A DNA stretch of 64,000 nt from Artemia franciscana (lineage: Eukaryota > Arthropoda > Branchiopoda > Anostraca > Artemiidae). The position numbers were made by a program, and so were the translations under genes. The stretch lies in assembly GCF_032884065.1 (NCBI RefSeq), contig NC_088872.1:9981493-10045492 (forward strand). The letters run 5' to 3'. The number at the start of each line of letters is the position of its first letter. Positions within the stretch are counted from its first letter, which is position 1. The notes under the pieces were generated by a model, which had not been told where the DNA came from, ran no database searches, and worked only from the letters and a program-made list of their open reading frames with translations. Positions 3,236 to 59,408 of this stretch are shown piece after piece.

Positions 3236-3346
3236 ATCCCGATGGAGAATCCAACTCTAAAAATTTAGGTTATATGAAAGGGGCTATCCCCTCCTGAACG
3301 TCTCGCTCTTTACGCTAAAGTTAAACTCTTTGTCACAACTCTACTT
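3236..3346 (+). repeat. Palindromic repeat family, left half (split by Penelope element)
   Basis: Matches the inner part of the family's head palindrome (GGGGCTATCCCCTCC, then CTCTTTACGCTAAAG, then AACTCTACTT at 3337-3346). It stops at the Penelope insertion and resumes at 6930. Confidence 0.75.
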
Positions 3347-3437
3347 ATGAAAACAAAGAAAGGGAATAAAAAATGAAAAGAGAAAAAACAAATAGGTGAA
3401 AAAACGAGGATTTTATCAGCCAGTAGCTAAATATGAA

Positions 3438-3493
3438 AAACAAGCAAATATTTCGACAAGGACCTCCGCCAAGTCGTCCTCAGTGCTCAAAGA
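3438..3493 (-). ncRNA. Hammerhead-ribozyme-like motif, minus PLE copy
   Basis: On the minus strand the order is GAGCA, CTGAGGA (fits CUGANGA), a GAC...GTC stem II, GAAA, a very short stem III (TA), then TT and TGCTT. TGCTT pairs with GAGCA as stem I. Tiny stem III hammerheads are known from Penelope-like elements. The core bases are seen; cleavage is inferred. Confidence 0.5.
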
Positions 3494-3605
3494 AAACAAA
3501 GAAAAAAAACCAGCAAAATCTAACCTTTATAAGTGAACTACACGAGAAGAAGACAGATACTGACTCAACCAACAAAAAACCAAGTTTAAATCAATAAAAG
3601 AGAAG

Positions 3606-4935
3606 TTACCAATTAGATTGAATAGGTATCCTTTGCCTTGCAACAGATTTCGCCTGTCTACAATTTCGGTTCTCATTAGATATGCGGACAGGTTGTCTTA
3701 AATTAGACTGAGCGGAAATATTCATAGAGTCTTTTAATATTAAATTATTATAAATTGGGCTTAAGGAAATATCTCCCGTGTCTCTATTTATAGCCAAATT
3801 TCTATTTATATGTTTTTTTTTTATCTCAATAGCCTCTTTAAAAGATTGCGGTAGACCATTTACAGTAGATATTAAAGTTGCCTCTTCAAAGAGAACTAAA
3901 TGGGCAGGATTTTCGTATATATGCTGGGCCAGAGCTGAATCAAAGTTGTCATTTTTATTTTCCAATCTCAGGGACTTATCTATTGAAATTTTGTGTTCTT
4001 GCAATCGTTCCCCTAGTTGTTGATTGGTCCTTCCAATGTAAAATTTTCCACACGAACACGGGACTCTGTAGACACCACTACCTAGTATAGGGTCCGTTTT
4101 ATCCTTTCCCGAGTTGAAAAAATGTTCAACTTTTTGTTCAGTTTTAAAAGAAACAGAGAGATTATGTCTTTTTAAAACTTTTCCAAGTTTATCGCTGAGT
4201 TTTGAGACGTATGGTAATGTAGTGAAAGTTTTTTTCTCAGTTGCCAGTGTACCTGAATCAAGGGGGACGGGCTTCCTGTTTTCCTGTTTAATCTTTTTTA
4301 ATCGTCTATCTATTATATTTTCAATGAGGTTGATTGGGTAGCCATTGCAGAATAGAATGTCTTTAACATAGTCTAACTCGGATTTTACATGATTACGTGA
4401 ACATATTTTTAGAACCCTGTCGACTAAAGAAATTACTACCCCTCTTTTTACACAAGGAGGGTGATTTGACGAGAAATGTAGATACCGATCATTATGGGTT
4501 GGCTTTCTATATATAGAAAAATCCAGGCTAGGAATATTTTTTATAATTAAAACATCCAAGAAAGGGAGCTTTCCTGAATCTTCCAGTTCTATTGTAAATT
4601 GAAGATTCGAATCAAAAGAAGTCAAATGTGCCAAAAAAACTTTTAGAGAGTTCTGACCATGTTCCCAAACAGCAAGAATATCATCAACGAAACGAAACCA
4701 GAGAGAGTGTTTTAAGGGGAAACTATTCAAAGCAGACTGTTCTATGAAATCCATGTAAAAATTTGCCAAAAAAGGAGACAAAACAGTGCCCATGGGCAGG
4801 CCCTTGACCTGAAGGAAAATTTTTTCTCGAAACCTAAAATATAAAGAGAACTTGTTGCAAAGACGTACAAGCGTCATTATTGTGTCAATTTACAAGGTTT
4901 TGTAATCTGCCCAAGTAGAATTTTCCTCTAATTTT
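3606..4935 (-). pseudogene. Penelope-like RT/GIY-YIG protein, 5'-truncated copy
   Basis: The open part (4877 down to 3606, 423 aa) contains the RT palm with LPMGTVLSPFLANFYMDF, the catalytic box RFVDDILAVW (about residues 62-71), a linker, and a GIY-YIG nuclease in the C-terminal part (GVYRVPCSCGKFYIGRT, with the Cys pair typical of Penelope). Matching codons continue upstream to about 4935 but are closed by an in-frame TAA at 4890-4892, where the sister copy has GAA. The N-terminal RT fingers are missing. The C-terminus (KSVARQRIPIQSNW) is intact. It lacks the 2-nt A-tract insertion that breaks the plus copy. Confidence 0.85.
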
Positions 4936-6631
4936 GAGGAAAGAATTAGAAATTTTAAAAGATAATAGACTAATCACCCCTCAAATGTACAGAAAATTTT
5001 ACCCAAAAGGTTGTTCAGCCCCAAAATTTTACGGTCTACCCAAAATTCATAAGAAGGATACTCCGTTACGTCCTATTGTAGCATGTCATAGCTCTCCAGC
5101 TACAGGCGTAGGAAAATTCTTAGCTACAATTTTCAAGTATCTTCTAACAACACAGAAATCTTATATAAAAAATTCCATAGATCTTGTTGAGAAGCTGAAA
5201 AATCATAGTATAACAGAAAAAACTATCTTATCTAGTTTTTGATGCAATTCCCATGTACACTTCATGCGATGTCCATAAATGTGAACAGGCCTTACAAAGA
5301 AAATTAGAGGAAAATTCTACTTGGGCAGATTACAAAACCTTGGAAATTGACACAATAATGACGCTTGTACGTCTTTGCAACAAGTTCTCTTTATATTTTA
5401 GGTTTCGAGAAAAATTTTTCCTTCAGGTCAAGGGCCTGCCCATGGGCACTGTTTTGTCTCCTTTTTTGGCAAATTTTTACATGGATTTCATAGAACAGTC
5501 TGCTTTGAATAGTTTCCCCTTAAAACACTCTCTCTGGTTTCGTTTCGTTGATGATATTCTTGCTGTTTGGGAACATGGTCAGAACTCTCTAAAAGTTTTT
5601 TTGGCACATTTGAATTCTTTTGATTCGAATCTTCAATTTACAATAGAACTGGAAGATTCAGGAAAGCTCCCTTTCTTGGATGTTTTAATTATAAAAAATA
5701 TTCCTAGCCTGGATTTTTCTATATATAGAAAGCCAACCCATAATGATCGGTATCTACATTTCTCGTCAAATCACCCTCCTTGTGTAAAAAGAGGGGTAGT
5801 AATTTCTTTAGTCGACAGGGTTCTAAAAATATGTTCACGTAATCATGTAAAATCCGAGTTAGACTATGTTAAAGACATTCTATTCTGCAATGGCTACCCA
5901 ATCAACCTCATTGAAAATATAATAGATAGACGATTAAAAAAGATTAAACAGGAAAACAGGAAGCCCGTCCCCCTTGATTCAGGTACACTGGCAATTGAGA
6001 AAAAAACTTTCACTACATTACCATACGTCTCAAAACTCAGCGATAAACTTGGAAAAATTTTAAAAAGACATAATCTCTCTGTTTCTTTTAAAACTGAACA
6101 AAAAGTTGAACATTTTTTCAACTCGGGAAAGGATAAAACGGACCCTATACTAGGTAGTGGTGTCTACAGAGTCCCGTGTTCATGTGGAAAATTTTACATT
6201 GGAAGGACCAATCAACAACTAGGGGAACGATTGCAAGAACACAAAATTTCAATAGATAAGTCCCTGAGATCGGAAAATAAAAATGACAACTTTGATTCAG
6301 CTCTGGCCCAGCATATATACGAAAATCCTGCCCATTTAGTTCTCTTTGAAGAGTCAACTTTAATATCTACTGTAAATGGTCTACCGCAATCTTTTAAAGA
6401 GGCTATTGAGATAAAAAAAAAAAACATATAAATAGAAATTTGGCTATAAATAGAGACACGGGAGATATTTCCTTAAGCCCAATTTATAATAATTTAATAT
6501 TAAAAGACTCTATGAATATTTCCGCTCAGTCTGATTTAAGACAACCTGTCCGCATATCTAATGAAAACCGAAATTGTAGACAGGCGAAATCTGTTGCAAG
6601 GCAAAGGATACTTATTCAATCTAATTGGTAA
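4934..6631 (+). pseudogene. Penelope-like RT/GIY-YIG protein, longer copy with two frameshifts
   Basis: Frame 1 (4934-5242) has the RT fingers with GLPKIHKKDTPLRPIV. One surplus T in a T run at about 5236-5240 breaks SFDAIPMYTS, and the frame resumes at 5253-6431 with the palm (LPMGTVLSPFLANFYMDF; catalytic RFVDD, with the GTT GAT GAT codons at 5547-5555) and the GIY-YIG nuclease (GVY at 6159-6167). A tract of 12 A at about 6413-6424, against 10 in the sister copy, causes a second frameshift. The last 63 codons run in another frame to 6631. The region upstream of the RT fingers is absent, so the element is 5'-truncated. It is a young but dead copy. Confidence 0.87.
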
Positions 6632-6746
6632 CTTCTCTTTCATTGATTTAAACTTAGTTTTTTGTTGGTTGAGTCAGTATCTGTCTTCCTCTCGTGTAGT
6701 TCACTTATAAAGGTTAGATTTTGCTGTTTTTTTTTCTTTGTTTTCT

Positions 6747-6800
6747 TTGAGCACTGAGGACGACTTGGCGGAGGTCCTTGTCGAAATATTTCCTTGTTTT
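6747..6800 (+). ncRNA. Hammerhead-ribozyme-like motif, plus PLE copy
   Basis: Same layout as the motif at 3438-3493: GAGCA, CTGAGGA, GAC...GTC, GAAA. Here the 3' strand of stem I reads TCCTT instead of TGCTT, which loses one pair, so this copy should be weaker or inactive. Confidence 0.4.
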
Positions 6801-6929
6801 TCATATTTAGCTACTGGCTGATAAAATCCTCGTTTTTTCACCTATTTGTTTTTTCTCTTTTCATTTTTTATTCCCTTTCTTTGTTTTCATACGTCATGCA
6901 CAGCCAGTATGGTCTCAGAACGTGTTCAT

Positions 6930-7075
6930 AACTCTACTTGAGAGAGAGGCGTTGAGGAGAAACAGCCTCTTTCATAAATAGAATAATTTCTGTTCGTTTT
7001 AAGTCTTAATGTCGCTACTTACTTTCAGTTTAAAAAACTTGTTTTTGGAAATTTCATTTTTGAATATTTTTCAAC
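6930..7075 (+). repeat. Palindromic repeat family, right half after Penelope insertion
   Basis: Begins with the duplicated AACTCTACTT, then GGCGTTGAGGAG, ATAATTTCTGTTCGTTTTAAG and the motif GTCGCTACTTAC. This continues the head palindrome interrupted at 3346. Confidence 0.75.
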
Positions 7076-7195
7076 TAACATAGGTTCGAATTTATCTTAA
7101 TGAAAACTTAAAATAAAATTAGCATATTAGTTTTGGAAAATTAATTCCGAATATGAAGGGTTACCTCCTCCTCAAGACCTTGCTCTTTAAACTAT

Positions 7196-8834
7196 TAAAT
7201 AAAAAAAAACTAATTTTTTTAGCTGAAAGTAAGGAGCGACATTAAAACTTAAAACGAACAGAAATTACTCCGTATATGAAACGGGTTGTCCCCTCCGCAA
7301 TCTCTCGCTCTTTACGCTAAAGCTTTTAATTGTTTTAAAAAGTAGAATTGTGGCAAAGAGTCAAACTTTAGCGTAACGAGCGAGGGATTGCGGAGGGGAC
7401 AACCCATTTCATATACGGAGTAATTTCTGTTCGTTTTAAGTTTTAATGTCGCTCCTGTCTTTCAGCTAAAAAAATTAGTTTTTTATATTTAATTTCTGAA
7501 CGTTTTTGAGTTAATGTATGTTTGGTTTTGGCTCTCCGCACACAAATTATTAAAATGAAATTTGTATATTAATTCTTTTTTTTGGCCAAATGGCTTTCTC
7601 TTAGTTTTGATCAGACGATTTTGAGAAATAAGTGGTGGAGAAGGAGGCCTAGTTGGCCTCCAATTTTTCGTTTACTTAAAAAGGCAACTAGAACTTTAAA
7701 TTTTTAACGAACGTTTTTATTAGTAAAATATATACGTAACTTAAGAATTAACTTACGTAACAAACTTTCATAACTTTATATTTTTATTATGTATGCGAGG
7801 GGGTTTGTACCCTCGTTAATACCTCGCTCTTTACACTAAATCGTAGGTTTTGTCCCAATTCTTTAAGAATGACCCCTGAATCAGAAAGGCCGTAGAACAA
7901 ATAGTTGAAATTACTAATCTCTGTTCGTTTTAAGTTTCAATGCTACTTCTTCCTTTCATTTGAAAAAACGTTTTCATGTTTATTTTTCATTGTTTTCTTA
8001 TAGTAATGCTAGAGAATCCTGCGCCCTTTTCATTGAATTTTTCTTCCTCCATGACATATTCCTCCAAGGAAAGATCCTCCAACATAGCCCCCTCTCCTCA
8101 GCCCCACCCCCAAACAAAATAAAATCCCCCTGAAAACGTCTGTACACTTCCCAATAACCATTACGATATGTAAACACTGGTCAAAGTTTGTAACTTGCAG
8201 CCCCTCCCCCAGGGATTGTGCGGGAGTAAGTCATCCCCAAGGACATAGTTATTGTGGTTTTCGACTTTGCTGAACAAAATGGCTATCTCAAAATTTTGAT
8301 CCGTTGACTTTGGGAAAAAATGAGCGTGGGAGGGGGCCTAGATGCCCTCCAATTTTTGGTCACTTAAAAAGGGGACTAGAACTTTTCATTTCCGTTAGAA
8401 TGAGCCCTGAGCCCTCTTGCGACATTCTAGGACCACATGGTCGATACGATGACACCTGGAAAAAAAAAAAAAAAACACGCACCCGTGATTTGTCTTCTGG
8501 CAAAAATGCAAAATTCCACATTTTTGTAGATAGGAGCTTGAAACTTATACAGTAGGGTTCTCTGATACTCTGAATCTGATGGTGTCAATTTTCGTTAAGA
8601 TCCTACGACTTTTAGGGGGTGTTTCCCCCTATTTTCCTAAATAAGGCAAATTTTCTCAGGCTCGTAACTTTTGATGAGTAAGACTAAACTTGATGAAACT
8701 TATATTTTGAAAATCACCATTAAAATGCGATTCTTTTGACGTAGCTATTGATATCAAAATTCAATTTTTTAGAGTTTTGGTTACTATTGAGCCGGGTCGC
8801 TCCTTATTACAGTTCGTTACCACGAACTGTTTGA
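7196..8834 (+). repeat. Palindromic composite repeat, near full copy
   Basis: The head palindrome occupies 7196-7498: arms of about 140 bp begin and end with TTAAATAAAAAA-type tails and GCTGAAAGTAAGGAGCGAC. A module of about 450 bp (TTTTGGCTCTCCGCAC to TTTACACTAAATCG) follows, then one of about 800 bp (AATGCTAGAGAATCC onward). The end is TCGCTCCTTATTACAG and the 22-bp palindrome CAGTTCGTTACCACGAACTG. No coding capacity. Short frames in it (for example 8304-8555) recur only as repeat sequence. Confidence 0.85.
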
Positions 8835-8904
8835 AAGTTGTTAGCACTTTCAAAAAAGCTTCCTATTCCAGTTAAACTATTATTCAATAATAGTAAACAG
8901 TCAA

Positions 8905-10040
8905 AATTTCGCGTAAAGAGGAAGGTATGGTGGAGGGGACAACCCGTCATACATGGCATAATTTCTGTTCGTTTTTCAAATAATGGCTGTAACTATGGCT
9001 TACCCTCTATTGTATATACTCCCCCCCTCATGGAAAACTCCTCCGTGGAAATTTCATCCAATATAAAGCGCACCTCCCTCCCCCGTCAAATTCATTCCGT
9101 ACAGTTTTTTCCTCGCTGAGAATCCCACTCCTTGTAAAATTGCTTGGGAGCGATTCACCCTGAAAAATTTTTCTTAGCATGCTTTCATTTTAATAACCAT
9201 TTAATCTCCAATCGGTCTCTCGATCACTCCAAAAATGCCGCCTACCGTGGAAATTATTTCCCAGAAAACAAAACACACGGAAAAACGCCCCTGGGTAATT
9301 CCCCCGGAACGTTTCCACATAAAAAAATGGGCAAAGAGAATGTAGGACAATTAAAAAGAATTTTGTATAGTAATTTTGTCCAAAACCCTAACATTTCTGC
9401 TGGAATATTTACTCATCAGAAATTTCCCTCCTCAAGGAAGATTCTCCCCACAGAAAGCCATCCTGAGCATACCTCCCCCCCAAAAAAAAAATACTATATG
9501 TAAACCATGGGCAAAGTTCACAACTTGCAGCCCTTCCCCCGGGGACTGTGGGGGTCATTTTACTCCTAAGGACATAGTTATTAGATCTTTTCGACTATAC
9601 TGAAAAAATGGCAATTTCAAAATTTTGATCAGGTGACTTTGGGAAACACTATAGCGTGGGAGGGGGCCTAGATGCCTTCCAATTTTATTGGTCCCTTAAA
9701 AAGGCCACTAGAACTTTTAATTTCCGTTCGAATGAGCTATCTTGCGATATATTAGGACCACTGGGTCGATATGATCATCCCTGGGGAAAAAAAAATAAAT
9801 AAATAAACAACCATCCGTGATCTTCCTTCTGGTAAAAAATTCAAAATTCCACATTTTTGCAGATACGAGCTTGAAACCTTTATAATAGAAGGGTTCTCTG
9901 ATACGCCGAACCTAATGGTGTGACTTTCATTAGGATTCTGTGACTTTTAGGGGGGAGGTTTCCCTCTTTTTTCGAAAATAGGGCAAATATTCCCAGGCTC
10001 GTAGCTTTTGATGGGTAAGACTAAACTTGATGAGATTTAT
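8905..10040 (+). repeat. Palindromic composite repeat, 5'-truncated degenerate copy
   Basis: Lacks the head palindrome. It starts at the CGTAAAGAG/ATAATTTCTGTTCG boundary of the second module and runs through the third module (GTGGGAGGGGGCCTAG at 9656, CTTGAAACC) to about 10040, where it breaks off before the terminal 22-bp palindrome. More diverged than its neighbours. 10041-10196 holds nothing recognised. Confidence 0.75.
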
Positions 10041-10196: not shown

Positions 10197-11914
10197 AAAT
10201 TAAATAAAAAAAACAAGTTTTTTTAACTGAAAGTAAGGAGCGACATTAAAACTTAAAACGCACAGAAATTACTTCGTATATGAAAGAGGCTGCTTCCTCA
10301 TCAACGCCCTGCTCTTTACGCTAAAGTTTGACTCTTTCTCTCAATTCTTCTTTTTAAAGCAGTAAAAAACTTTAGCGTAAAGAGCGGGGCGTTGATGAGG
10401 AAGCAGCCTCTTTCATATACGAAGTAATTTCTGTGCGTTTTAAGTTTTAATGTCGCTCCTTACTTTCAGTTAAAAAAACTTGTTTTTTTTATTTAATTTC
10501 TGAACGTTTTTGAATCAATGCATGTTTTGATTTGGCTCTCGGCAGAGGAATAATCAAAACGAAATTTGCATATTTTTATTTTTTTTGTGCTAAATGGCTT
10601 TCTCATAATTTTGATCGAATGATTTTGAGAAAAAAAGAGCGGGGGACGAAGACTAGTTGCCCTCCGATTTTTTGGTTAATTAAAAAGGCAACTAGAACTT
10701 TTAATTTTTTACGAATCTTTGTATTGGTAAAAGGTTTACGTAACTTATAAATTAGCTTACGTCAAGAACTTTTGTATTCTCATGTTTTTATTACATATAT
10801 GAGGGGATTCGCCCCATCGTCAGTACCTCTCTCTTTAAACTAAAGCTTAAATTTTATCCCAATTCATTAAGAATGACCCCTGAATCACAAAAGCCGTAGA
10901 ATAAATAGTTGAAATTACTAAAAATCTTTAGCGTAAAGATCGAGGTATCAGAAGGAGGTGAGCCCCTCATATGGGTAATAATTTCTGTTTGTTTTAAGTT
11001 TTATTGCTGTTCCTTACTTCCAGCTGAAAAAGCTTTTTCACATTTATTTTTTAATTTTTTTTTTTAAATAATGCTAGTAAATCCTGCTCTCTCTTCATGG
11101 AAATTTTCTTCTCCATGACAAATTCTCGATGGAAAGTTCCCCCAGCCTATCCCCCTCTTCTCAACCCCTCCCCCAACCAAAAAAATCCTCCTGAATACGC
11201 CTGTATACTTCCCAATAACCATTACTATATGTAAGCACAGGTCAAAGTTTGTAACCTGTTGCCCCTCCCACGGGGACTGTGGGGGAGTAAGTCGTCCCCA
11301 AAGACATAGTTATAAAGTTTTTCGATTACGCTGAATAAAATGGCTATCTCAGAATTTTGATCCGTTGACTTTGGGAAAATAATTAGCGTTGGAGGGGGCC
11401 TAGGTGCCCTCCATTTTTTTGGTCACTTAAAAAGGGCACTAGAACTTTTCATTTCCGTTAGAATGAGCCCTCTTGAAACATTCTAGGACAACTGGGTCGA
11501 TACGATCACCCCTGGGAAAAAAAAACAACAAAAAACAAAAAAAAAACAAATAAACACGCATCCGTGATCTGCCTTCTGGCAAAAAATGCAAAATTCCACA
11601 TTTTTGTAGATAGGAGCTCGAAACTTCAACAGTAGGGTTCTCTGATACGCTGAATCTGATGGTGTGATTTTCGTTAAGATTCTATGACTTTTAGGGGTTG
11701 TTTCCCCTTATTTTCTAAAATAACGCAAATTTTCTTAGGCTCGTAACTTTTGATGGGCATGACTAAACTTGATGAAACTTATGTATTTAAAACCAGCACT
11801 AAAATGCGATTCTTTTGATGTAGCTATTGGTATCAAAATTCAATTTTTTAGAGTTTTGGTTACTATTGAGCCGGGTCGCTCCTTACTACAGTTCGTTACC
11901 ACGAACTGTTTGAT
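10197..11914 (+). repeat. Palindromic composite repeat, full-length reference copy
   Basis: Best complete copy. The head palindrome is at 10197-10500, with GTAAGGAGCGAC at 10233-10244 and its inverse at 10452-10463. The middle module holds a degenerate version of the motif at 11006-11017. The last module ends with the inverse motif at 11875-11886, immediately followed by the terminal palindrome. CTCTTTACGCTAAAG / CTTTAGCGTAAAGAG pairs occur in the head. There is no ORF, target duplication or similarity to a transposase. Confidence 0.87.
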
Positions 11915-20725: not shown

Positions 20726-21693
20726 AAAGAAATCTTATGTTTTGGTGCTTTCAACTGGGAAATTATGTAGCTCTTTCTCAGGAATAATAAATTTAAGAGG
20801 AATTATAATGAGATCAGAAAGTTGATATTCCAGTTGTTTGGCTGTTTATGTTGACCAAGATCCATGCGAAGATGATCTTTTCCATCGTCAACGATCATTG
20901 ACAAAGATTAAAACATCGTGCAGCAGCGAACGGTCTGAAAACTACACGAAGTCTTGAAGTGTTGACAAATCTGAAGCTTTACTTTTCCACAAAAGTTCTG
21001 CAGCTTTTGTATTTCCCACGTATTCAATCGCACAATCGGTACTCTTCGTTGGTTTGGATGTCAACTTTTAAAACAAATAGAGTTATTATTGATAAATCGA
21101 ACAGAATAGCGTTATATCAAGTCCAGAAAGTCAATTTGTCATCGCTAATTGACAGCCTTTATATGCGGTTTTGCTCCATTTTAGTCAATAAATTTTTTAA
21201 TTTTTTTATGGCCATCATGTTTTGAAACTGTTTTCACAGGGGGAAAGGCAACAAAGGAGATCTGGAGACAATAAAGTATTGATTATGCCCTTTACGCCGA
21301 CTTTTTGGCCTGATTGCGGAAAACTCTACCAGAGGATTTGGAATATAAAGCTGACACTCTGTTCATTCCAGATAAATTTAAAGAAATTTCTTACAAAAAA
21401 AAAATTCAAGATGAATTCCTAATTAAATACTTACTTACTTTTAGTGAGATTTGATTTAGCTATAATAAATTCTGATTCAGTTTCTCACTGAGTAGATATT
21501 CATTTTGTTAAAGCAATTTATCTAAGTAAGTTGATTTTAATGTGGTCGGATGGGTTCCGCATGTAGGAAAACGGAATATTGTTTACATTGTCCTCCCACA
21601 GGATAATTCTCAATGTAAAAATTTATTAATAATTGGATTTTTTCAATTTTTTAAAGTTTGGTTGTGAATGTGCTATCATTACAATGGTTTCAT

Positions 21694-22465
21694 CAAACAG
21701 TTCGTGGTAACGAACTGCAGTAAGGAGCGACCCGGCTCAATAGTAAACGAAACTCTAAGAAACGGAATTTTGATGCGAAAAGATACATCAAAAGAATCGG
21801 ATTTTCATGCTGATTTTAAATATATAAGTTTCATCAAATTTAGTCTTTGTCATCAAAAGTTAAAAGCCTAAGAAAATTTGCCTTATTTTGGAAAATAGGG
21901 GGAAATACCACTTAAAGGTCATAGAATCTTAACGAAAATCACACCATTGCATTCAGCGTATCAGAGAACCCTACTACAAAAATTTCAAGCTCTTATCTAC
22001 AAAAATGTGGAATTTTGTATTTTTTTGCCAGAAGACAAATCACAGATGCGTGTTTATTTGTTTGTTTTTTTTTTCTTTTGTTCTTTGTTTTCCCAGGGGT
22101 CATTGCATCGACCAAGTGGTCCTAGAATGTCGCAAGAAGACTCATTCTAACAGAAATGAAAAGTTTTAGTGCCCTTTTTATGTAGCCAAAAAATTAGAGG
22201 GCATCTAGGCCCCCTCCCACGCTCATTTCTTACCCAAAGTCAACGGATCGAAATTTCGAGATAGCCATTTTGTTCAGCATAGTCAAAAACAACAACAACT
22301 ATGTCTTTGGGGATGACTTACTCCCCCAAGTCCCCGGGGGAGGTGCTGAAAGTTACAAACTTTTACTATTGTTTACATACAGTAATGGTTATTGGGAAGT
22401 GTACAGACGTTTTCAGGGGGATTTTTTTTTGTTTTTTTTTGGGGGGGGGGTTGATATATTTTGGG
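21694..22465 (-). repeat. Palindromic composite repeat, truncated minus copy
   Basis: Starts with the terminal palindrome (AACAGTTCGTGGTAACGAAC) and GTAAGGAGCGACCCGGCTC, runs through the outer module and breaks at about 22465, where the segmental duplication begins. Head and middle module are absent. Confidence 0.85.
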
Positions 22466-22469
22466 AGAA

Positions 22470-22968
22470 AGGACCGAATACTTCAGCTTCAAGTGTGAAA
22501 GCCTTTAGGAACAGAAAAAAATATACTAATTTGTGCAGAATAAATAAAATGCAAAAAAGGCACAAAATAAAAAAACAGATGAATTTTTTTATCTGTCTCT
22601 TCCATTTATTTACATGTTTTGTATAATTTAGATTAGTTTTCTGTTCGTTGATAAAGATTTCCCGACGCGAAGAAATATGTAGACCTTTCTATTTTTTCAG
22701 CATATTTATCATCTTCGTTTAAAATTATGTAGATAGAATAGATAGTGCTCTGTGTCTAAGCAGGTGTCGGACTAGAAAGCCAAAAGATAGATAGGATACC
22801 CTGTGAATGCCACTTAAATTCAGCACAGTTTCAAAATGTTCAATTGCCGTTCCTGAAGTACTAGAAACCAATATAGATAGAAAGATAAGTTTATTTCAAA
22901 AGCCCAAGAGCCATATAGACACTAAAATATAAATAAATAACCAACAAGCAAGGAAATCAAACATTAGT
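22470..22968 (-). repeat. Inverted segmental duplication, partner of 40371-41062
   Basis: About 500 bp that match 40371-41062 in reverse orientation, including about 100 bp of the LINE 3' UTR (CCCAAGAGCCATATAGACAC) and about 400 bp of unrelated flank (GGCATTCACA / TGTGAATGCC zone). The copy lacks the 190-bp foldback insertion present at 40566-40755. It lies between two palindromic repeats. Confidence 0.8.
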
Positions 22969-22971
22969 CAA

Positions 22972-24697
22972 ACAGTTCGTGGTAATGAACTGTAGTAAGG
23001 AGCGGCCCGGCTCAATAGTAAACGAAACTAAAAAACGGAATTTTGATGCTACAGGATACATCAAAAGAATCGGGTTTTTATGCTGATTTTAAATATATAA
23101 GTGTCATCAAATTTAGTCTTTGTCATCAAAGGTTACGAGCCTGAGAAAATTTGCCACATTTTGGAAAATAGGGGGGAACACCCCCCAAAAGTCATAGAAA
23201 CTTAACGAAAATCACACCATCGCATTCAGCGTATCAGAGAACCGTGCAGCGAAAATCTCAAGCTCCTATCTACAAACATGTGGAATTTCGTATTTTTTGC
23301 CAGAAGACAGATCACGGGTGCGTGTTTATTTGTTTTCTTTTTTTTCCAGGGGTCAACGTATCGACCAAGTGGTCTTAGAATGTCGCAAGAGGGCTCATTC
23401 TAACGGAAAAGAAAAGTTCTAGTGCCCTTTTTGAGTGACTAAAAAACTGGAGGGCACCTAGGCCCCCTCCCACGCTCATTTTTCCCCAAAGTCAACGGAT
23501 CAAAATTTTGATATAGCCATTTTGTTCCGCATTGTCGAAAATCATATTAACTATGTCTTTGGGGATGATTTACTCCCCCACAGTCCCTGGGGGAGGGGCT
23601 CCAAGTTAAAAACTTTGACAAGTGTTTACATACAGTAATGGTTATTGGGAAGCGTACAGCGTTTTCAGTGGGATTTTTTTGGTTTGGGGGTGGGGTTGAT
23701 GGGAGGGGGCTATGTGGGAGGATCTTTCCTTGGAGGAATATGTCATGGGGGAAGAGAAATTCAATGAAAAGGGCGCGGGATTGTCTAGCATTACTATAAA
23801 AAACACAATAAAAAAATAAACATGAAAAAGTTTTTTCAATTGAAAGTAAGGAGTAGCATTAAAACGAACAGAGATTATTACGCATATGAGGGGGTCCAAA
23901 AATACTTTAGCATAAAGAGCGAGGTATTTAGGAGAAGATAACTACCCCGCTCTTTATGCTAAAGTATTTTTTAGTAATTTAAACTATTTATTCTACGGCC
24001 TTTCTGATTCAGGGGTTATTCTTAAAGAATTGGGACAAAAATTAAGATTTAGTGTAAAGAGCGAGATATTAACGAGGGGACAAACCCCCTCATATACATA
24101 ATAAAAATATAAGAATATAAAAGTTTGTTATGTAAGTTAATTCTTAAGTTACGTATAATTTTTACTAATAAAAACGTTCGTTAAAAATTAAAAGTTTTAG
24201 TTGCCTTTTTAAATAACAGAAAAATTGGAGGGCAACAGGGCTCCTTCCCCACCCCTTATTTCTCAAAATCGTCTGAACAAAACTAAGAGAAAGCCATTTA
24301 GCCAAAAAAAGAATTAATATGCAAATTTCATTTTACTAATTTATATGCGGAGAGCCAAAATCAAACATGCATTAATTCAAAAACATTCAGAAATTAAATA
24401 AAAAAACTAGTTTTTTAACTGAAAGTAAGGAGCGACATTAAAACTTAAAACGAACAGAAATTACTCCGTGTATGAAAGGGGCTATTCCCTTCTCAACGCC
24501 CAGCTCTTTACGCTAAAGTTTTTACTGTTTAATAAAGTAGAATTGAGAGAAAGAGTCAAACATTAGCGTATAGAGCGGGGTGTTGAAAAGGGAACAGCCC
24601 CTTTCATACACGGAGTAATTTCTGTTCGTTTTAAGTTTTAATGTCGCTCCTTACTTTCAGTTAGAAAAACTATTTTTTTATCTAATTTTATAATAAA
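22972..24697 (-). repeat. Palindromic composite repeat, full minus copy
   Basis: The terminal palindrome is at its right-hand end on the minus strand (22975-22996) and the head palindrome is at 24395-24690 with GTAAGGAGCGAC arms. All three modules are present. An internal copy of CTTTAGCATAAAGAGCGAGG lies at 23908-23930. Confidence 0.87.
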
Positions 24698-30349: not shown

Positions 30350-30660
30350 TCCCCCCCCCCCCCCCCCCCACTAAGGGACTTTGTAGAAAAGGAATTGTGG
30401 AGGCTTCAGACGAGACTCATTCGATTGCAAATTAAAAGTTTTAGTGCCCTTTTTAAGACTTAAAATTGATTGAAGGTCAAAAAGCCTCCGTGTCCACCGC
30501 TCCTTATTCCCCCAAGGGCATGTAATAAAAGTTTTAAGATTGCCATTTTATTCAGCATAGTTAAAAGGACCAATAACCAAACTGCAGAAGAGTAAAATAG
30601 CTTTTTTGATGTTCGTTTTTCAAGGTCAAGGTAAAATTCATAATGAGGCCAAAACAATAG
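30350..30660 (-). repeat. Palindromic composite repeat, degenerate fragment
   Basis: After a C run at 30352-30369, matches the middle of the repeat's outer module (AATTAAAAGTTTTAGTGCCC, CCATTTTATTCAGCATAGTT). Poorly conserved ends. Confidence 0.55.
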
Positions 30661-34626: not shown

Positions 34627-36790
34627 TATCACCTCTCCCCGAGTATTTGGTAGAACAGATCGTACGCACTGTATCAAGAAGGTTTTGATCAAAGCATCTG
34701 CTATTGTAGGTTATGATAGAATTAATAGTAGATCTGAAAACTTGCTTTGGCTGTATATTTGACTTAAATGTGGGAAGCAATTAATTTTGGGTGTAGTGCA
34801 TGTGCCTACACGGAATAGTTCGTATAACCGAGAAAATGCTTGGAAAATTTTAGAAGAAGAATTATCGTTAATGCAAGAAAGTTATAGAGATCTAGAGTGC
34901 GTTTTGATGGGAGATTTTAATGCTTATACCGGCATGGAGGCTGTGATCCCAGATGTGTTGATCCCAGATTTAGTGATTTTGTCCCAATTTGTTATAAGAT
35001 ACAACGAAGCAACAAGGATGAAAAAAGAAAAGTATGGGGAAGAAAGCTCCTGGCGTTTTGTAGGGAACATGGTCTGATGATTGTGAATGGTAGGTTTGGG
35101 AATGATAAGGGTAGGGGCGAGTTTACTTGCCTGCCGGGTCCAACTCCAAGTGTTGTAGATTATGCGCTAATTAATACGCAATTTGTACCTGAATCAATTA
35201 ATATGTGAGTAATAGATTTAGTTGGAAATAATCATAGAGCTATTAAGCTTGAGGTGAAGGTTGGGCAGTTTCAGGATCACGGTCCCCGAATAAGAAATTT
35301 CTATAATGTGGAGATTAGAAAAGTATGTTTAAGAAAACGAATTAGAAATAATTTAATAGATAAAGATATTTTGGCATTTAAAAGGAAGCTTTTGGAGTCG
35401 CATGTAAAAAATAAGTTGAAATCGTTAGAAGACCATGAAAAAGATGCACATGGTGTAATTATGCAGTTAAATGAAATAATGGGCAGTTGTGCAGAATCGT
35501 GTGGCCTGACAAAAAAAGTAAGAAAGAATGAAAGGTATTTTGATTTGGATTGCAAGTTAATGAAAGGAGAAGTGAGATATTTACTGAATCGTTTGAATGA
35601 ATGTGAAAGCACGGAAGATCAAAGTTTGGGATTGGCTAAATACAAAGAGAATATAACAGTTTAATAAAAAGGAAAAAAGTAAGAGATTAAGAAGAAACTG
35701 GACATTGCTGATGTTTTTAGAAAAAATGATTTTAAGAAGTTTTGAGGCTATATAAGAAATAATAGTGGAAAGGGAAAAGTTAATCCTCATGTTGTTCCGG
35801 AAGCTGATCCATGACCTGATTACCTAAAAAACTAGGAAGGTGATTGTGTAGATCTTAAGGAGGTACTGCACACCCCAGAGATGGTTATTTATGGAACACG
35901 ATTATGATTTAATGGTTGATGTGAATTACCAAGAGATAAAGTTTGTATTTTAGAATTTAAAAGGTAGTTCTGCTGCTGATATTGATGTTATACCAATAAA
36001 GTTATTTAAGAATTTCCTTTCCATTTTTATGCCGATAATTGTTCTTCTTTGTAATAAGGTGTTAACTACAGTGCAATGGCCAAGCGTTTGGAAGACATAA
36101 TTGTTTCTACCACTTTTTAAGAGAGGAAACCCGAAGGCTCATGAGGATTATAGTTGAATAGCACTTTTCCCTGCTTTAAGCAATGTATTGGAGAAAATAT
36201 TAGATGCCAGGCTTTCCAATTGGTTAAATAAAAATAATAGGATATTATTACGACATATCCTATAATAATATACTATCTGTGGTATAATACGACTATCTGT
36301 CGTCCTATAAATAATAGGACGACCGATAGTGCGTTTATTTTGAAGGCATTAAAAGCTAAATATGGAAAGGGAAAACTTGTCTTTATGTGGTATTTTTGGA
36401 CCTCCATAAGGGTTTCGACAGAGACTTATTGAAAGATCCCATGCTAAAAATTGGCCTTCCCCATTTATTTGTTAGTGTGATAGTGAGTATGTATATTTAC
36501 GAGAGTGGAATCGCACAAGTTGGTAACAGGTTTTCGAAGCTTTTTGATATTAAGCTGGGAGTAAAACAGGGCAGCACCCTTTCTCCTAAGTTGTTTAATG
36601 TGTTTATAAATGAAGCTGTTAACTTTCTAGAGAATAGATTCACTCCAAAAGTTAGCCTAGGGACTCAAAAACTGTCACTTTTAGTATTTGCAGTTGATAT
36701 TGTTTTGGTGGCTAATAAATCGTAAGATTTACAGAAGCTTTTGAATCTCATTGATTAATATTGGCAGACAAGTAAATTAAGGCTGAATCA
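34627..36790 (+). pseudogene. LINE ORF2, rest of endonuclease and reverse transcriptase
   Basis: Endonuclease: MGDFNAYTG near 34905 (catalytic GDxN), NGRFGNDKGRGEFTCLPGPT near 35090, VVDYALINTQFVPES and NNHRAIKLEV near 35230. The linker is Lys-rich (35254-35664). RT: the fingers near 36000-36230, then LDLHKGFDRDLLK near 36394 (AFD box, altered), GVKQGSTLSPKLFNVFI near 36559, and VFAVDIVLVA near 36690, where the catalytic YADD has become AVDI. Ends with KLRLNH at about 36790, where a palindromic repeat starts. Stops and frameshifts throughout. Confidence 0.78.
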
Positions 36791-36796
36791 CATATT

Positions 36797-38145
36797 TCGC
36801 GGTAACGAACTGTAGTAAGGAGCGACCCGGTTCAATAGTAACCGAAACTCTAAAAATAGAATTTTCATACCAATAGTTATATCAAAAGAATCGCATTTTT
36901 ACGCTGATTCTAAATATATAAGTCTCATTATGTTTAGTTTTACCCAGTTACGAGCCTGAGAAAATTTGCCATATTTTAGAAAATAGGGGGAAAGACCCGC
37001 TGAAAGTCAAAGAAACTTAACGAAATTCTCACGATCAGATTCAGCGTATCAGAGAACCCAACTGAAGAAGTTTCAAGCTCCTATCTACAGAAATGTGGAA
37101 TTTTGTATTTTCTCTCAGAAGACAGATCATGGGTGCGTGTATTTGTTTTTTTTTTGTTTGTATTTTTTTCCAAAGGTGATCGTATCGACCCAGTGGTCCT
37201 AGAATGTCGCGTGAGGGCTCATTCTAACGGAAATTAAAAGTTATAGTGGCCTTTTTAAGTGACCAAAGAAATTGGAGGGCACCTAGGCCCCCTCCCATGC
37301 TCATTCTTCTTCCCAAAGTCAGTGAATCAACATTTTTAGATAGCCATTTTGTTAAGCATTGTCGAAAAAACCTAATAATTATGTCTTTCAGGACGACTTA
37401 CCTAGGCCCCCTCCCACACTCATTTTTCTTCCCAAAGTCACTGAATCAACATTTTTCGAAAGCCATTTTGTTCAGTATAGTCGAAAAAAACTAATAATTA
37501 TGTCTTTCAGGACGACTTAATTCCCCAGTCCCCGGGGGAGGGGTTGCAAGTTACAAACTTTGACCATTGTTTATATATCATAATGGTTATTGGGACATGT
37601 ACATACGTTTTCAGGGAGACTTCTTCATGTTCAAGGGGAATCAGGGGGAGGGGGTTACGTGGGAGGACCTTTCCATGGAGGAATTTATCATGAGGGAAGA
37701 AAATTTCGATGAAGGGGCCACAGGATTTTCTATCATTATAAAAAAAAAAACAATGAGAAACTAACTAAAAAAAAAAAAAAATTCAGGAGGAAGTAAGAAG
37801 CAGCATTAGAACCCAAAACGAACAGAAATTATTACGTATATTAGGGTGTTTGTCTCCTCCACAATACTTCACTCTTTACGCTAAAGTATTTTTAGCAATT
37901 TCAACTATTTATTCTACGGCCTTTATGATTCAGGCGTCATTCTTAAAGAATTGGGACCAAATTGAAGCTTTAGTGTAAAGAGCGAGGTATTGACGAAGGG
38001 TAGAACCCCCTCATATACTTAATAAAAATATACAAATATAGAATTTAATTGCGTATGTTAATTCATAAGTTACGTATATCTATTACTAATTACTGGTAAT
38101 TCATTATTGAGGAAGCCATTTAGCCAAAAAAAAATTATATGCGTC
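36797..38145 (-). repeat. Palindromic composite repeat, minus copy lacking its head
   Basis: The terminal palindrome is degraded to ATTTCGCGGTAACGAAC. The outer and middle modules are present; an internal duplication of about 115 bp repeats CCTAGGCCCCCTCCCA...AATAATTATGTCTTTCAGG at 37281 and 37403. Cut at about 38145 by the Helitron fragment, so the head palindrome is lost. Confidence 0.8.
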
Positions 38146-44313: not shown

Positions 44314-45055
44314 GATTAAATAAAAAAAAACAAGTTTTTTAACCTGAAAGTAAGGAGCGATATTAAAACTTAAAACGAACAGAAATTACTCCGTATATGA
44401 AAGGGGTTGTTCCCCCCTCAACGACCCGCTCTTTACGCTAAAGTTTGACTCTTTCTCTCACCTCTACTTTTTAAAACAATAAGAAACTTAAGCGTAAAGA
44501 GAGGGGCGTTGAGGGGGGAACAGCCCCTTTCATATACGGAGTAATTTCTGTTCATTTTAAGTTTTAATATCGTTCCTTACTTTTAGTTTAAAAAACTTGT
44601 TTTTTATTTAATGTCGGAACGTTTTCGAATTAAATCAATATTTTGATTTTGGCTCTCCACACATAAATAATTAAAACAAAATTTGCATATTTATTTTTAT
44701 GGCTAAATGGCTTTTTCATAGTTTTAGTCGGACTATTTTGAGAAAAAAGGAGCGGGGGAGTAGGCCTAGTTACCCTCCAATTTTTTGGTTATTTAAAAAG
44801 GCAACTATAACTTTTGACTTTTTACGAACGTTTTTATTAGTAAAAATATACGTAACTTTCGAATTAACTTATGTAACGAACTTCTAAATTCGTTTGTTTT
44901 TATTGCGTATAATAGGAGGTTCAGCCTCTCGTTAATATCTCAATCTTTATAAAAGCTTAAATTTTGTCCTAATTCCTTAAGAATGACCCCTGAATCACAA
45001 AGGCCGTAGAATAAATAGTTGAAATTAATAAAATTACTTTAGCGTAAAGAGCGAG
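44314..45055 (+). repeat. Palindromic composite repeat, head plus middle module
   Basis: The head palindrome is 44314-44605 (starts ATTAAATAAAAAAAAACAAG). The middle module runs to CTTTAGCGTAAAGAGCGAGG, where a TA microsatellite (45054-45073) ends it. Outer module and terminal palindrome are absent. Confidence 0.85.
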
Positions 45056-45352
45056 GTATATATATATATATAATACAATACTCTATCATAGTTATAGTCC
45101 AATAAAAGCGGTATTCTCAGAACGATTGATAAGAACAATTCAACTTTGATTCTTGAGATATTGTACATTAAAAACAATTGCTACTTTTATTCAAGATTTA
45201 GATAAAATCATGTTGATTTATAATCACCGCCCTCAAATCAAATCCAAGCCCTCTTAAAGTTGATCACAGGGAAAATACAATTGACATTTTTCTTTTACTA
45301 GTATGCATTACAAAATGTTCAAAATCATAGAATGTATCAAACTGAAATGATA

Positions 45353-46816: not shown

Positions 46817-47333
46817 ACATAAATTAAATAACCAATGAATTCGATTTGGATCCCGACATACCAAAATACAAATCCTATTGCATACCCTCGGATTTTCTCG
46901 ATCATATTCAAAGTGTTAACAATGCCTTTATCATTTTCAATAGTAGCCCATCAACTTTAAAGACGGAACATTGGCTATGCATATTACAAACAGCGAAGAA
47001 AATTTAATTTTTGCATCCTATTGGTCTACCATTCATTCTATACGCCTCACTAAATAAAACTTCTTGAGCAAAGTCGAAAATCTATAATTCGAAGTCGGAA
47101 GCGATTAAAAGATTTATCAACCAAAAGGTGCGGTTCTCATGCATTATTATATTTTATTTATTAGTGTCGCGGATATACTTACAGTAAATTTCTCAGGATT
47201 CATGTAGACAGTCCTCGATTGAACGACTTTCTAGTTGAAAATACTCTTTCCTACTGGTATATAAATTTCAGGGCCTAATAATGAAATGCCTTAAAAATAT
47301 TTGTGAATTTGTTTATTAGTAAAACTTGTAGAA
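46817..47333. other. Unrecognised, possibly further relic
   Basis: Short frames only. May be decayed sequence of the same integrated element; nothing recognisable. Ends at the palindromic repeat. Confidence 0.35.
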
Positions 47334-48955
47334 CAGTTCGTGGTAACGAACTGTAGTAAGGAGCGACCTGGCTCAATAATAAACGAAACTCTAAAAAACG
47401 GAATATTGATGCTAAAAGATACACCAAAAGAATCGGATTTTCATGCTGATTTTAAATATATAAGTTTCATCAAATTTTGTCTTTATCATGAAAAGTTACA
47501 AGCCTGAGAAAATTTGCCTTATTTTGGAAAATAGGGGGGAAACACCCCTTAAATGTCATAGAATACAAAAATGTGGAATTTCGTATTTTTTGCCAGAAGA
47601 CAGGTCACGGGTGCGTGTTTATTTATTTTTTTTGTTTATTTCCCCAGGGGTCATCGTATCGACCAAGTGGTCCTATAATGTTGCAATAGGGCTCATTCTA
47701 ACGGAAAACGAAAAGGTCTAGTGCCCTTTTTAAGTGACCAAAAAAATTGGAGGGCACCTAGGCCCCCTCCCACGCTCATTTTTTCCCAAAGTCAACGGAT
47801 CAAAATTTTGAGATAGCCATTTCGTTCCGCATAGTCGAAAACTATAATAACTGTGTCTTTGGGGATGACTTACTCCCCCACAGTTCCTGGGGGAGGGGCA
47901 GCAAGTTACAAACTTTGACCAGTGTTTACATACAGTAATGGTTATTGGGAAGCGTATAGACATTTTCAGGGGGATTTTTTGGTTTGCAGGTGGGGCTGGA
48001 TGGTTTGAGGATGGGGGAAGAGAAATTCAATGAAAAGGGCGCGGGATTTTCTAGCATTACTATGAAACAACAATGAAAAAATAAACATGAAAAAGTTTTT
48101 TCAATTGAAAGTAAGGAGTAGCATTAAAACTTAAAACGAACAGAGATTATTACGCATATGAAGAATTCTAAAAATACTTTAACATAAAGAGCGAGGTAGT
48201 TAGGAGGAGATAAATACCTCGCTCTTTATGCTAAAGTATTTTTAGTAATTTCAACTATTTATTCTACGGCCTTTCTGATTCAGGGGTCATTCTTAAAGAA
48301 TTGGGACAAAACTTACAATCCAGCGTAAAGAGTAAGGTATTAACGAGGGGATAGACCCCCTCATATACATATTAAAAACATAAGAATATAAAAGTTTGTT
48401 ACGTAAGTTAATTCTTAAGTTACGTATATTTTTTACTAATGAAAATGTTCGTTAAAAATTAAAATTTCTAGTTGCCTTGTTAAGTAACCGAAAAATTGGA
48501 GGGCAACTAGGCCTCCTTGCCCACCCCTTATTTCTCAAAATCGTCTGATCAAAACTAAGAGAGAGCCATTTAGCCAATAAAGAATTAATATGCAAATTTC
48601 ATTTTAATAATTTATGTGCGGAGAGCCAAAATCAAACATGCATTAATCCGAAAACGTGCTGAAATTAAATGAAAAAAACTTGTTTTTAACTGAAAGTAAG
48701 GAGCGACATTAAAACTTAAAAAGAACAGAAATTACTCCGTATATGGAATGGGTTGTCCCCTCCGCAATCCCTCACTCTTTACGCTAAAGTTTGACTCTTT
48801 GCCACAGTTCTTCCTTTTAAAACAATTAAAAACTTTAGCGTAAAGAGCAAGGCGTTGAGGAGGGGACAACCCATTTCATATACGGAGTATTTTCTGTTTG
48901 TTTTAAGTTTTAATATCGCTCCTTACTTTCAGTTAAAAAACTAGTTTTTTATTTA
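47334..48955 (-). repeat. Palindromic composite repeat, full minus copy
   Basis: The terminal palindrome AACAGTTCGTGGTAACGAAC is at 47334-47353, followed by GTAAGGAGCGACCTGGCTC. The head palindrome is at 48665-48955. About 60 bp (the CTTAACGAAAATCACACC block) are missing from the outer module. It separates the two coding-relic segments 45.4-46.8 and 49.1-50.5 kb. Confidence 0.87.
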
Positions 48956-49129
48956 ATATGTACAAAGAAAGCCTTCATTCTTTAGATTTCTTCTTCTACG
49001 TATAGGTAACCATCAGTAATAAGTGGTGCCAGCTTGTCAGAATTTTAAGTTGTATGCATCTTGGCATGCAAATTCAGGTTCATATTTCTAACAATAGAAT
49101 ATAACCATTTTTTTATTATATTTCCACGA

Positions 49130-51289: not shown

Positions 51290-52286
51290 TCACCAATTAC
51301 GCACAATCACAGCAACACATGCATAAAATAAACCTATAGCGTTTCCAAGCCTAGAACGTTCAAAGATTAATTTTTTTCGATTCTTGACCAAAAGGATCAG
51401 GATCCCCCTCCCAACCAAAAAAATGTAGGGAAGGCACTATGATCTTCGTCGTTACTTACAACACCCGGATGACATATCTTTCGAAAAACGTTTATTAGAC
51501 ACCTCTATAGGCGTGTATTTAATCATTTGCATAATTTTTCCGTTTTTTCACTCTTTATACTCAAAGCATGTGCATAAAAAATATCAGAAAACAAACAACA
51601 AAATTATTTTCACCATTTCCGTTCCCATTAGACCCCTTTTTTTCTTGGAAAATAATTTAGTTAGCGCTGTAATATTTATAATTATCGTTCAAATCTTTTC
51701 TTTTCTGCCATAGTTTATTGTTTAATATTTTGTCAAATAAATTGTTTAATATTTATTGTTTAAAATAAAACAATAATTAGTAAAGAAATGGCGTTCAAGT
51801 TCTTATTTCCGGAAAATGATTATTAATTGTAGACCTCGAATTCCTGGTATTGATTATTGTTATTTAAAATAAATATTGTCACACTATATTTTATTTTTAA
51901 TTCACATACCTACATGAATGAAAGTAAATAAAAACCAAAACCAGTTTTTACCCCAGATTCATTATTTATTTCTAGATAATCCACTAGAATTTTTAATCTT
52001 TTAATAATAATACATGTGAACAACAACATTAGACAAACTAAATACAGTAAAAAGAAGAATAGAAGTAATTTCTCGAGATAAAAGTTGAAAGAAGAACTAA
52101 CAAATCTTTTATAAAATTGTTTTTAACATACCTTGTAAATTGGGATGCGCCAAAATTCCACCAGTTTGATTCCACGTACTGTCAATAAAAACCACTTTGT
52201 TCAAAGATCTCCTTTCACTATTATTTAAGCTGAAAAAGTAAGTTGTGTAACATCATTAGGTCCTTAGAAAGAATAAATAAAAATAG
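51290..52286. other. No recognised gene
   Basis: Very AT-rich with several TTTATTGTTTAAT near-repeats at 51715-51775. Nothing coding. Confidence 0.5.
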
Positions 52287-53393
52287 TTTTTTTTAACTGA
52301 AAGTAAGGAGCCACATTAAAACTTAAAACGAACAGAAATTACTCCGTGTATGAAAGGGGCTGCTCCTTTCTCAACGCCCCGCTCTTTACGCTAAAGTTTG
52401 ACTCTTTCTCTCAATTCTACTTTATTAAACAGTAAAAAACTTTAGCGTAAAGAGTGGAGCGTTGAGAAGGGAGCAGCCCATTTCATACACGGAGTAATTT
52501 CTGTTCGTTTTAAGTTTTAATGTGGCTCCTTACTTCCAGTTAAAAAAACTATTTCTGTTAGTTAATTTATGAACGTTTTTGAATTAATGCATGTTTGATT
52601 TTGGCTCTCCGCACATAAATTATTAAAAAGAAATTTGCATATAATTCTTTTTTTGGCTAAATGGCTTTCTCTTAGTTTTGATCAGACGATTTTGAGAAAA
52701 AAGGAGTGGGGGAGGAGGCCTAATTGCCATCCAATTTTTCGGTTACTTGAAAAGGCAACTAGAACCTTTAATTTTTAATGAACGTTTTTGTTAGAAAAAA
52801 ATATACGTAACTTAAGCATTAACTTACGTAACGAATTTTTATATACTTATATTTTTATTATGTATATGAGGGGGTTTGTCCCCTCGTTGATACCTCACTC
52901 TTTACACTAAGGCTTAAATTTTGTCCCAACTCTATAAGAATGACCCCTGAATCAGAAAGGCAGTAAAATAAATAGTTGAAATTCCTAAATATACTTTAGC
53001 GTAAAGAGCGAGGTATTTAGGAGGACATTTAGGATAAACACCCACCCGTGATCGGTCTTCTGGTAAAAAATAGGAAGTTCCACATTTTTGTAGATAGGAG
53101 CTTGAAACTTTTACAATAAGGTTCTCTTACGAGCTGAATGCGATGGTGTCATTTTCGTTAAGATTCTGTGACTTGTAGGGAGTGTTTCCCCTATTTTCCA
53201 AAACAGACAAATTTTCTCAGGCTCGTAACTTTTGATGACAAAGACTAAATTTGATGAAACTTATATATTTAAAATCACCATAAAAAGCCAATTCTTTTGA
53301 TATATTTTTTAGTATCAAAAATTCTGTTTTTAGAGTTTCGTTTACTATTGAGCCGGGTCGCTCCTTACTACAGTTCGTTACCACGAACTGTAT
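52287..53393 (+). repeat. Palindromic composite repeat with internal deletion
   Basis: The head palindrome 52287-52560 and middle module are present. At about 53030 the sequence jumps to the last ~350 bp of the outer module (GATCGGTCTTCTGG), ending with TCGCTCCTTACTACAG and the terminal palindrome at 53372-53393. About 500 bp are missing. Confidence 0.85.
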
Positions 53394-53530
53394 GAAAAAA
53401 ATGCTTATTCTTCCTAACAAATCATTTTCTAGAGTGATTTTCAAACTCAAGAGATTTCCAAAAAAACCTTTAAAGTTGCTCAGAATCCTAACCCTTTTCA
53501 TTAAAGAGTTAATTTACGATGAAATATCTA

Positions 53531-59222: not shown

Positions 59223-59408
59223 CTAATCCCCAAGAAATACTCTCTTAATCTTTTTTTTAAACTGTGGGAGATGCTCAGCCTCCCTAACACTCACAGGAAG
59301 CGAATTCCATACAGAAGGGCAAAGATACTTCAAAGTAAAACCAGATCTCACACTATTTTCAATATCCACAACCAAGCTATCACATCTTGGTATTAAATAA
59401 AAAAACAA
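59223..59408 (-). pseudogene. LINE ORF2 C-terminus
   Basis: FTLKYLCPSVWNSLPVSVRE and the following LPQFKKKIKRVFL are the standard end of many CR1/jockey-like ORF2 proteins (a WNSLP box, then FKKxLK). It continues the peptide ending NSVHEHH on the other side of the repeat at 60645. Confidence 0.75.

Follow-up and report, generated by a model that had tools for sequence, protein, structure and literature searches.

At 10200..11913 on the plus strand of the window (the whole 64,000-nt stretch of Artemia franciscana DNA analyzed here) lies copy b, a full, young element that reads A^TTAAATAAA...TTTGA^T. Its boundaries were taken from the ends of genome copies and from uninterrupted host sites, with the start at about 10199 and one terminal A assignable to neither element nor host. 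A sequence-only reading had described a dominant, non-coding, modular mobile repeat with fourteen copies making up about a fifth of the window. This description was borne out, with 13,333 of the 64,000 bases (20.8%) covered in a BLASTN search with the element and no Pfam match among the ten ORFs tested. The share thus held, whereas the copy number became thirteen once the pieces of one interrupted copy, z, were provisionally merged.

Six copies had both ends, i.e., copy b; the older full copy a (7194..8834, plus strand), whose head loop is inverted and which is nested in an older copy; the full copies c (22968..24688, minus) and d (47329..48957, minus, head loop inverted); copy e (52270..53395, plus), which is deleted internally; and copy f (59392..60641, plus), in which the head is damaged. 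Two 5'-truncated copies retained only the 3' end (g, 21692..22428, and h, 36787..38090, both minus), the 3'-truncated copy i retained the head and the first core unit (44315..45059, plus), and two were heads (j, head only, 58641..58928, and k, a diverged head, 56079..56418, both plus). The remainder were a core fragment (30416..30559, minus) and the oldest copy, z, which lies in pieces (3271..10040, plus). These pieces, defined by matches at 3271-3355, 6941-7074, 7138-7194, 8907-8975, and 9492-10040, can be placed in collinear order and probably represent a single older copy split by a pair of retroelements and by copy a. The one-copy reading depends on matching 7138-7194 to reference 599-644 (E 0.005), although reference 68-120 gives a stronger match (E 3.6e-5).

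Several other repeats and ORFs share the window. Beside the pieces of the old copy, 3343-6894 holds two reverse-transcriptase elements in inverted orientation that are 98.8% identical and which we take to be Penelope-like; some relatives carry PF01541. The ORF at 3609-4889 was 97% identical over 83% to the A. franciscana protein P0047. A LINE ORF (17122-19446) matched P0001 at 98% identity across 62% of its length, and a stretch making up 8% of it matched an internal part of the A. franciscana protein P0015 at 92%. The sequence at 22455-22966, which by eye resembles a retroelement tail, runs from the 3' end of copy c to the truncated copy g, and its paralogue at 40363-41055 lacks both copies; the arrangement could reflect chance or read-through transduction. 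A separate palindromic repeat occurs at 44029-44309 and 50964-51290 (72% identical), and copy i begins at its edge. Finally, there were two tandem arrays, one at 54821-55599 (123-bp unit, 6.3 copies, 96%), which is open over 216 codons, and one at 28254-29034 (218-bp unit, 3.6 copies, 91%).

Copies from elsewhere were obtained by a search of the 1,270,528,402-base assembly, which gave 13,903 first-look candidates; 40 places were scored and 38 of them used as loci L009-L046. Because these genome copies are the sequences most similar to copy b, young copies are over-represented among them.

Ends and insertion sites

Comparison of genome copies placed the ends of the element at A^TTAAAT...GTCGCTCCTTAC-T-ACAGTTCGT-TACC-ACGAACTGT-TTGA^T. 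Among 20 listed full copies from the genome and the window (L021 was left out), 19 started with ATTAAAT and all 20 stopped after TTTGA, or after TTTAA in L010, while the flanks differed on both sides. The last A was invariant in 52 of 52 three-prime ends. It was followed by a host T in 34 of these (T background, 32%), by A in 10, by C in 7, and by G in 1, i.e., A^T was a preferred and not an absolute target, next to A^A, A^C, and A^G. ATTAAAT was preceded by T at 17, by A at 16, by G at 10, and by C at none of 43 five-prime ends.

An uninterrupted host site was matched for 6 of 31 full copies, and the junction was gapless at all six. The matches were gapless throughout for L010 (96.7%) and L037 (90.8%) and had gaps away from the junction for L028 (92.5%), L026 (82.8%), L011 (80.0%), and copy a (76.5%). 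For the second copy in L009, the spanning match was its own locus and was excluded from this count. Each uninterrupted site read straight through from the 5' flank over one A to the 3' flank. Since the six host sites hold one A between the flanks, one A is common to element and host, and A^TTAAAT...TTTGA^T is therefore the simplest notation.

No consistent target site duplication (TSD) was found in the 31 full copies when the longest word shared near the two junctions was compared with controls of mismatched flanks. With a slack of 3, the mean length was 3.58 against 3.26 in the control; with a slack of 1, it was 2.13 against 1.60, an excess that we counted against a rolling-circle reading. 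The same applies to one of the 31 copies, L023, in which an 8-nt match resembled a TSD. A check of six window copies (2.33 against 1.27 at a slack of 2, and close at 5 and 8) was superseded by that of the 31 copies.

Palindromes, core units and the 12-mer

The element begins with a head palindrome (10197..10499, plus strand) whose 133-nt arms, 10197-10329 and 10367-10499, are 99% complementary and flank a 37-nt spacer. As single-stranded DNA, the head folded at -158.7 kcal/mol (z -34). The 3' end consists, in order, of the inverted 12-mer (11875-11886), a single T, the hairpin ACAGTTCGT-TACC-ACGAACTGT (11888..11909, plus strand; fold z -3.6, matched by 0 of 200 shuffles), and TTGA, so that the hairpin stops 4 nt short of the element end. 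Both the head palindrome and the terminal palindrome proposed from the sequence were thus confirmed. A GATGAG string in copy b had raised the possibility of a hammerhead ribozyme; this candidate was dropped, as most of the aligned window heads lacked the string by eye.

Between these ends, a second, degenerate palindrome spans the module junction (10788..11057, plus strand). It includes a third, inverted copy of the 5' arm at 10919-11057, with 74.6% identity to the head arm over 142 nt. A 117-bp core unit is present twice (unit 1, 10592..10707, and its duplicate, unit 2, 11338..11454, both plus; 79.5% identity). Judged from its sequence, the element is composed of duplicated arm-and-core units and a single unique 3' end. 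In Fusarium relatives of Helitron2, several 5' termini accompany a single 3' terminus, which was attributed to self-insertion (PMC5148889). Self-insertion also occurs in the Artemia repeat, as L028 lies inside a palindrome of another copy and copy a does so less clearly.

The 12-mer GTAAGGAGCGAC had been singled out as recurring beyond chance, which proved correct: 37 window sites were found at up to 2 mismatches, against 1.74 expected and at most 5 in any shuffle. In copy b, it forms an asymmetric terminal inverted repeat. The 5' copy (10233..10244, plus strand) stands 33-34 nt in from the 5' end and has a 13-nt exact inverse at 11875-11887; the 3' copy (11875..11886, minus) lies 27 nt from the 3' end and directly before the hairpin, 1 nt away. 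As noted from the sequence, the 12-mer also stands at both ends of the head palindrome, the second site being its inverse in the right arm (10452..10463, minus, by arm alignment), and a degenerate version (11006-11017) lies within the third arm copy.

The layout of the 12-mer had been interpreted as that expected of a protein-binding site on the grounds that its neighbors differ from site to site. Different neighbors were found only between the head and the 3' end. Within the head, each site is the inverse of the other, and 11006-11017 belongs to an arm copy, so that duplication of the arm, inverted and in tandem, accounts for the head and junction sites. We asked how well the 12-mer is conserved relative to its flanks in 27 young copies (4 of the 31 full copies were excluded as older), which had a mean pairwise identity of 0.960. 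The 3' 12-mer was invariant (99th percentile of 12-nt windows), whereas the right-arm and 5' copies ranked at the 70th and 36th percentiles, respectively. The last 45 bases scored 0.997 against a mean of 0.970, with the conservation biased upward at the ends, as the copies had been chosen by end motifs. Among window copies, the 12-mer ranked 10th of 189 at the 3' end, 28th of 129 in the left arm, and 58th of 129 in the right arm. A protein-binding role is plausible at the 3' end, because the 12-mer is invariant there in the young copies; above-flank conservation did not extend to the 5' site, a further point that we counted against a rolling-circle reading. None of the papers searched prints the 12-mer.

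The head, a 300-bp inverted repeat, could by itself be taken for a miniature inverted-repeat (MITE) or foldback element moved by cut-and-paste, with the long form as a composite. Copy j consists of the head only, and L023, one of the 31 full copies, has its TSD-like match. In full copies, however, the head stands at the start and an unrelated hairpin at the end, with no matching terminal inverted repeat and only the subterminal 12-mer in common. The lack of a consistent TSD in 31 copies and the gapless junctions of the six uninterrupted sites also speak against cut-and-paste. Furthermore, among 49 heads, the core lay on one side in 41 (those that could be oriented and were used for the arm comparisons below), seemingly on both in 5, and on neither in 3. 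Two of these three have other explanations, a core following a short insert in L022 and a rearrangement in L029, which leaves copy j. A cut-and-paste origin is thus highly improbable.

Coding capacity and candidate partners

None of ten ORFs of 71-103 aa in copies a, b, and c matched Pfam at E ≤ 0.1, and the statement that the repeat has no coding ORF held as far as Pfam shows. Rfam at the gathering threshold returned three tRNAs and nothing else, and no exact DNA match to the 3' end, the arm, or the hairpin was found in the viral or prokaryote genome contigs searched. An autonomous partner of the Helitron2/Helentron type would encode RepHel, to which an endonuclease is added in Helentrons. 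Genes for RepHel proteins are abundant in the genome (7,434 Helitron_like_N candidates, of which 150 were scored). No autonomous partner with the ends of the repeat was found among the 30 of 142 window ORFs of at least 70 aa covered by the Pfam scan, or in two RepHel elements of the 150 scored, which we weighed against a rolling-circle reading. The 3' end was joined to a different core in 0 of 58 cases. Five of 124 arms had mostly non-family neighbors, a further point against; L029 was the one inspected among these.

The two RepHel elements inspected, L047 and L048, share 99.86% identity along 5.7 kb and have an intact 1663-aa ORF in which Helitron_like_N and PIF1 helicase domains are present. 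On the 3' side, they end as canonical Helitrons do, with a hairpin followed by CTAG and T; the 5' end falls within TA-rich sequence. The L047 Helitron spans 1527-7242 of its locus and lies within a TA repeat, immediately following the 3' terminus of an Artemia repeat copy. For its RepHel protein, the best 120 of 2,956 homologs were listed. Among the examined loci and the window, RepHel fragments were otherwise seen only in L031 and at four places in the window, with 84-97% identity to the L047 Helitron.

The repeat might be moved by the machinery of this young canonical Helitron (Helitron1) in spite of its non-canonical ends. The intact RepHel ORF, the 3' hairpin, and a preference for A^T, as published for canonical Helitrons, would suit such a route. 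However, the ends read TT...TTTGA instead of TC...CTRR, and neither the 12-mer (up to 1 mismatch) nor the hairpin (up to 3) occurs in the 5.7 kb of the L047 Helitron. We regard this route as rather unlikely. By its sequence, the L047/L048 Helitron is not a structural partner of the repeat; its RepHel protein could act on the repeat in trans.

Crypton-like elements and TSD-free HUH elements have neither a TSD nor long terminal inverted repeats, as is also the case for the Artemia repeat, and a tyrosine recombinase or some HUH enzyme that leaves no TSD might thus be invoked. No such enzyme was seen among the 30 of 142 window ORFs of at least 70 aa that were scanned, and an inverted 12-mer beside a terminal hairpin together with a preference for A^T are hallmarks of rolling-circle elements in published descriptions (PMC3627910, PMC4778049). 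We consider this explanation very unlikely.

A second repeat family, made up of minisatellite units, occupies 2-1079, 33616-34554, and 38138-39563 of the window. It includes RepHel-like fragments at 702-890, 33792-33980, 38280-38381, and 39141-39335, which match the end of the L047 RepHel ORF at 85-88% identity, and its members are probably non-autonomous canonical Helitrons.

Relation to Helitron2 and matching of the head arms

Elements of the Helitron2/Helentron type (HINE/DINE-1) are described as having a short inverted repeat near the 5' end and, immediately ahead of the 3' hairpin, the inverse of this repeat; they leave no TSD and have non-coding members (PMC3627910, PMC4067079). Because the 12-mer and hairpin of the Artemia repeat have this same layout, it is very probably a non-autonomous rolling-circle transposon with Helitron2/Helentron-type (HINE-like) ends. 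Rolling-circle transposition in trans is indicated by the lack of a consistent TSD, the A^T targeting, the terminal hairpin, and the lack of a recognizable gene. The many RepHel genes and the large Helitron share reported for the genome (PMC11492255) also speak for this reading. The earlier statement that the repeat fits no standard pattern is right for elements with terminal inverted repeats, LTR elements, and canonical Helitrons; the Helitron2/Helentron layout, however, does fit. An LTR or non-LTR retroelement was rejected on account of the absent terminal direct repeat, the constant hairpin at the 3' end, and the lack of a consistent TSD.

The likeness to Helitron2 as described by Bao and Jurka in 2013 (PMC3627910) extends to the asymmetric terminal inverted repeats of 8-15 nt, the 3' one of which is directly upstream of the hairpin and about 20-30 bp from the end, and to the T at the 5' end, provided that the A comes from the host. 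In Helitron2, the 5' repeat is also part of the 5' hairpin (PMC3627910); in the Artemia repeat, it pairs with 10452-10463, and the arms are far larger. HINE/DINE-1 elements are likewise non-coding and abundant, with subterminal inverted repeats of 11-15 bp, a 3' palindrome, and an unmodified target site, and DINE-1 and oyster HINE contain an inverted copy of the 5' repeat within the left module (PMC4067079, PMC7492417). FoHeli of Fusarium oxysporum shares the asymmetric inverted repeats, the hairpins, the several 5' termini with one 3' terminus, and insertion beside a T/A step (PMC5148889).

There are also differences. The 5' repeat stands 33-34 nt from the end, compared to 0-2 nt in Helitron2 and 2-4 nt in the mite HINE as described, and the target is A^T, while a TT or T-rich target is given for HINEs and Helentrons; we counted both against the rolling-circle reading. 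Owing to this distance and to the absence of a TT target, we call the repeat Helitron2-like and not a member of the Helentrons. The 133-nt-arm 5' hairpin, the second, degenerate palindrome, the duplicated core, and the A^T target set it apart from Helitron2 as published. HINEs are often described with microsatellites or short tandem repeats, whereas the Artemia repeat has long palindromes. The repeated 5' termini of FoHeli are short, measuring 31-85 nt in the examples given, while those of this non-coding family are inverted and about 133 nt long. With Helraiser, a canonical Helitron, the repeat shares the A^T target and the 3' hairpin, which is the terminator in Helraiser; AT is preferred there and is mainly replaced by TT, AC, or AA, of which AA and AC recur here (PMC4778049). 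The repeat, however, reads TTAAAT...TTTGA without TC and CTRR ends, and its hairpin lies 4 nt from the 3' end, compared to 11 nt in Helraiser and about 10-12 nt in Helitron1 as reported. Membership of the canonical Helitrons was rejected for these ends and this spacing, although insertion at A^T without duplication fits.

In a rolling-circle model, a RepHel-type protein supplied in trans would nick the 5' end at A^TTAAAT, and one strand would be unwound and displaced until the 3' signal, the inverted 12-mer and hairpin followed by TTGA, brings the process to a stop. The single strand would then be inserted elsewhere, with A^T favored as the target and left unduplicated. The head would correspond to the 5' hairpin of Helitron2, enlarged to a palindrome with 133-nt arms. 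On fold-back, the arms might be kept matched through copying or conversion, and the same step could invert the loop.

The two arms of a head have co-evolved. In the 41 orientable heads from the genome and the window, arm identity was 0.962 within copies and 0.906 between copies, and the best of 20,000 permutations of the arm pairing reached 0.932, below the true value. A head's own right arm was the best or tied-best partner in 21 of the 41. For eight window heads, the true left-right pairing ranked first among the 40,320 permutations. Among seven aligned heads, 26 of 131 pairs were changed on both sides, compared to 9.8 in shuffled data (none of 500 shuffles reached the true count) and 2-7 when the pairing was slid. 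The loop was inverted in 3 of the 41 heads, those of window copies a and d and of the older copy in L009, and one more was unclear. The loops of a and d scored 27 in inverted and about 0 in direct orientation, with maxima of 8 and 5 in 1,000 shuffles. All three inversions may descend from one shared event. Arm-to-arm conversion or fold-back copying would account for both the matched arms and the inverted loops, and selection for pairing may also have kept the arms alike.

More tentatively, the repeat could belong to a distinct rolling-circle lineage that combines Helitron2-type inverted repeats with canonical A^T targeting and rebuilds its long 5' hairpin from one arm in each single-strand round. 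If so, arm identity and loop flips would be a heritable record of the single-stranded intermediate. Should the arms be matched during transposition, a comparison of those in new insertions would put this intermediate to a direct sequence test, and the many copies in one genome offer material for studying the function of the 5' hairpin in Helitron2-like elements. The analysis also gives a structural identity to a dominant repeat in a widely used crustacean genome where, in the published 1.27-Gb assembly, the Helitron share is reported to be remarkably large (8.81% for Helitrons as a whole; PMC11492255).

A further head with an inverted loop was seen in L029, at 1089-1604, where it forms the center of an inverted duplication. 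The duplication takes in about 108 bp of flank and is followed by a partial second head. The structure looks like the product of fold-back or template switching, or like an assembly artifact.
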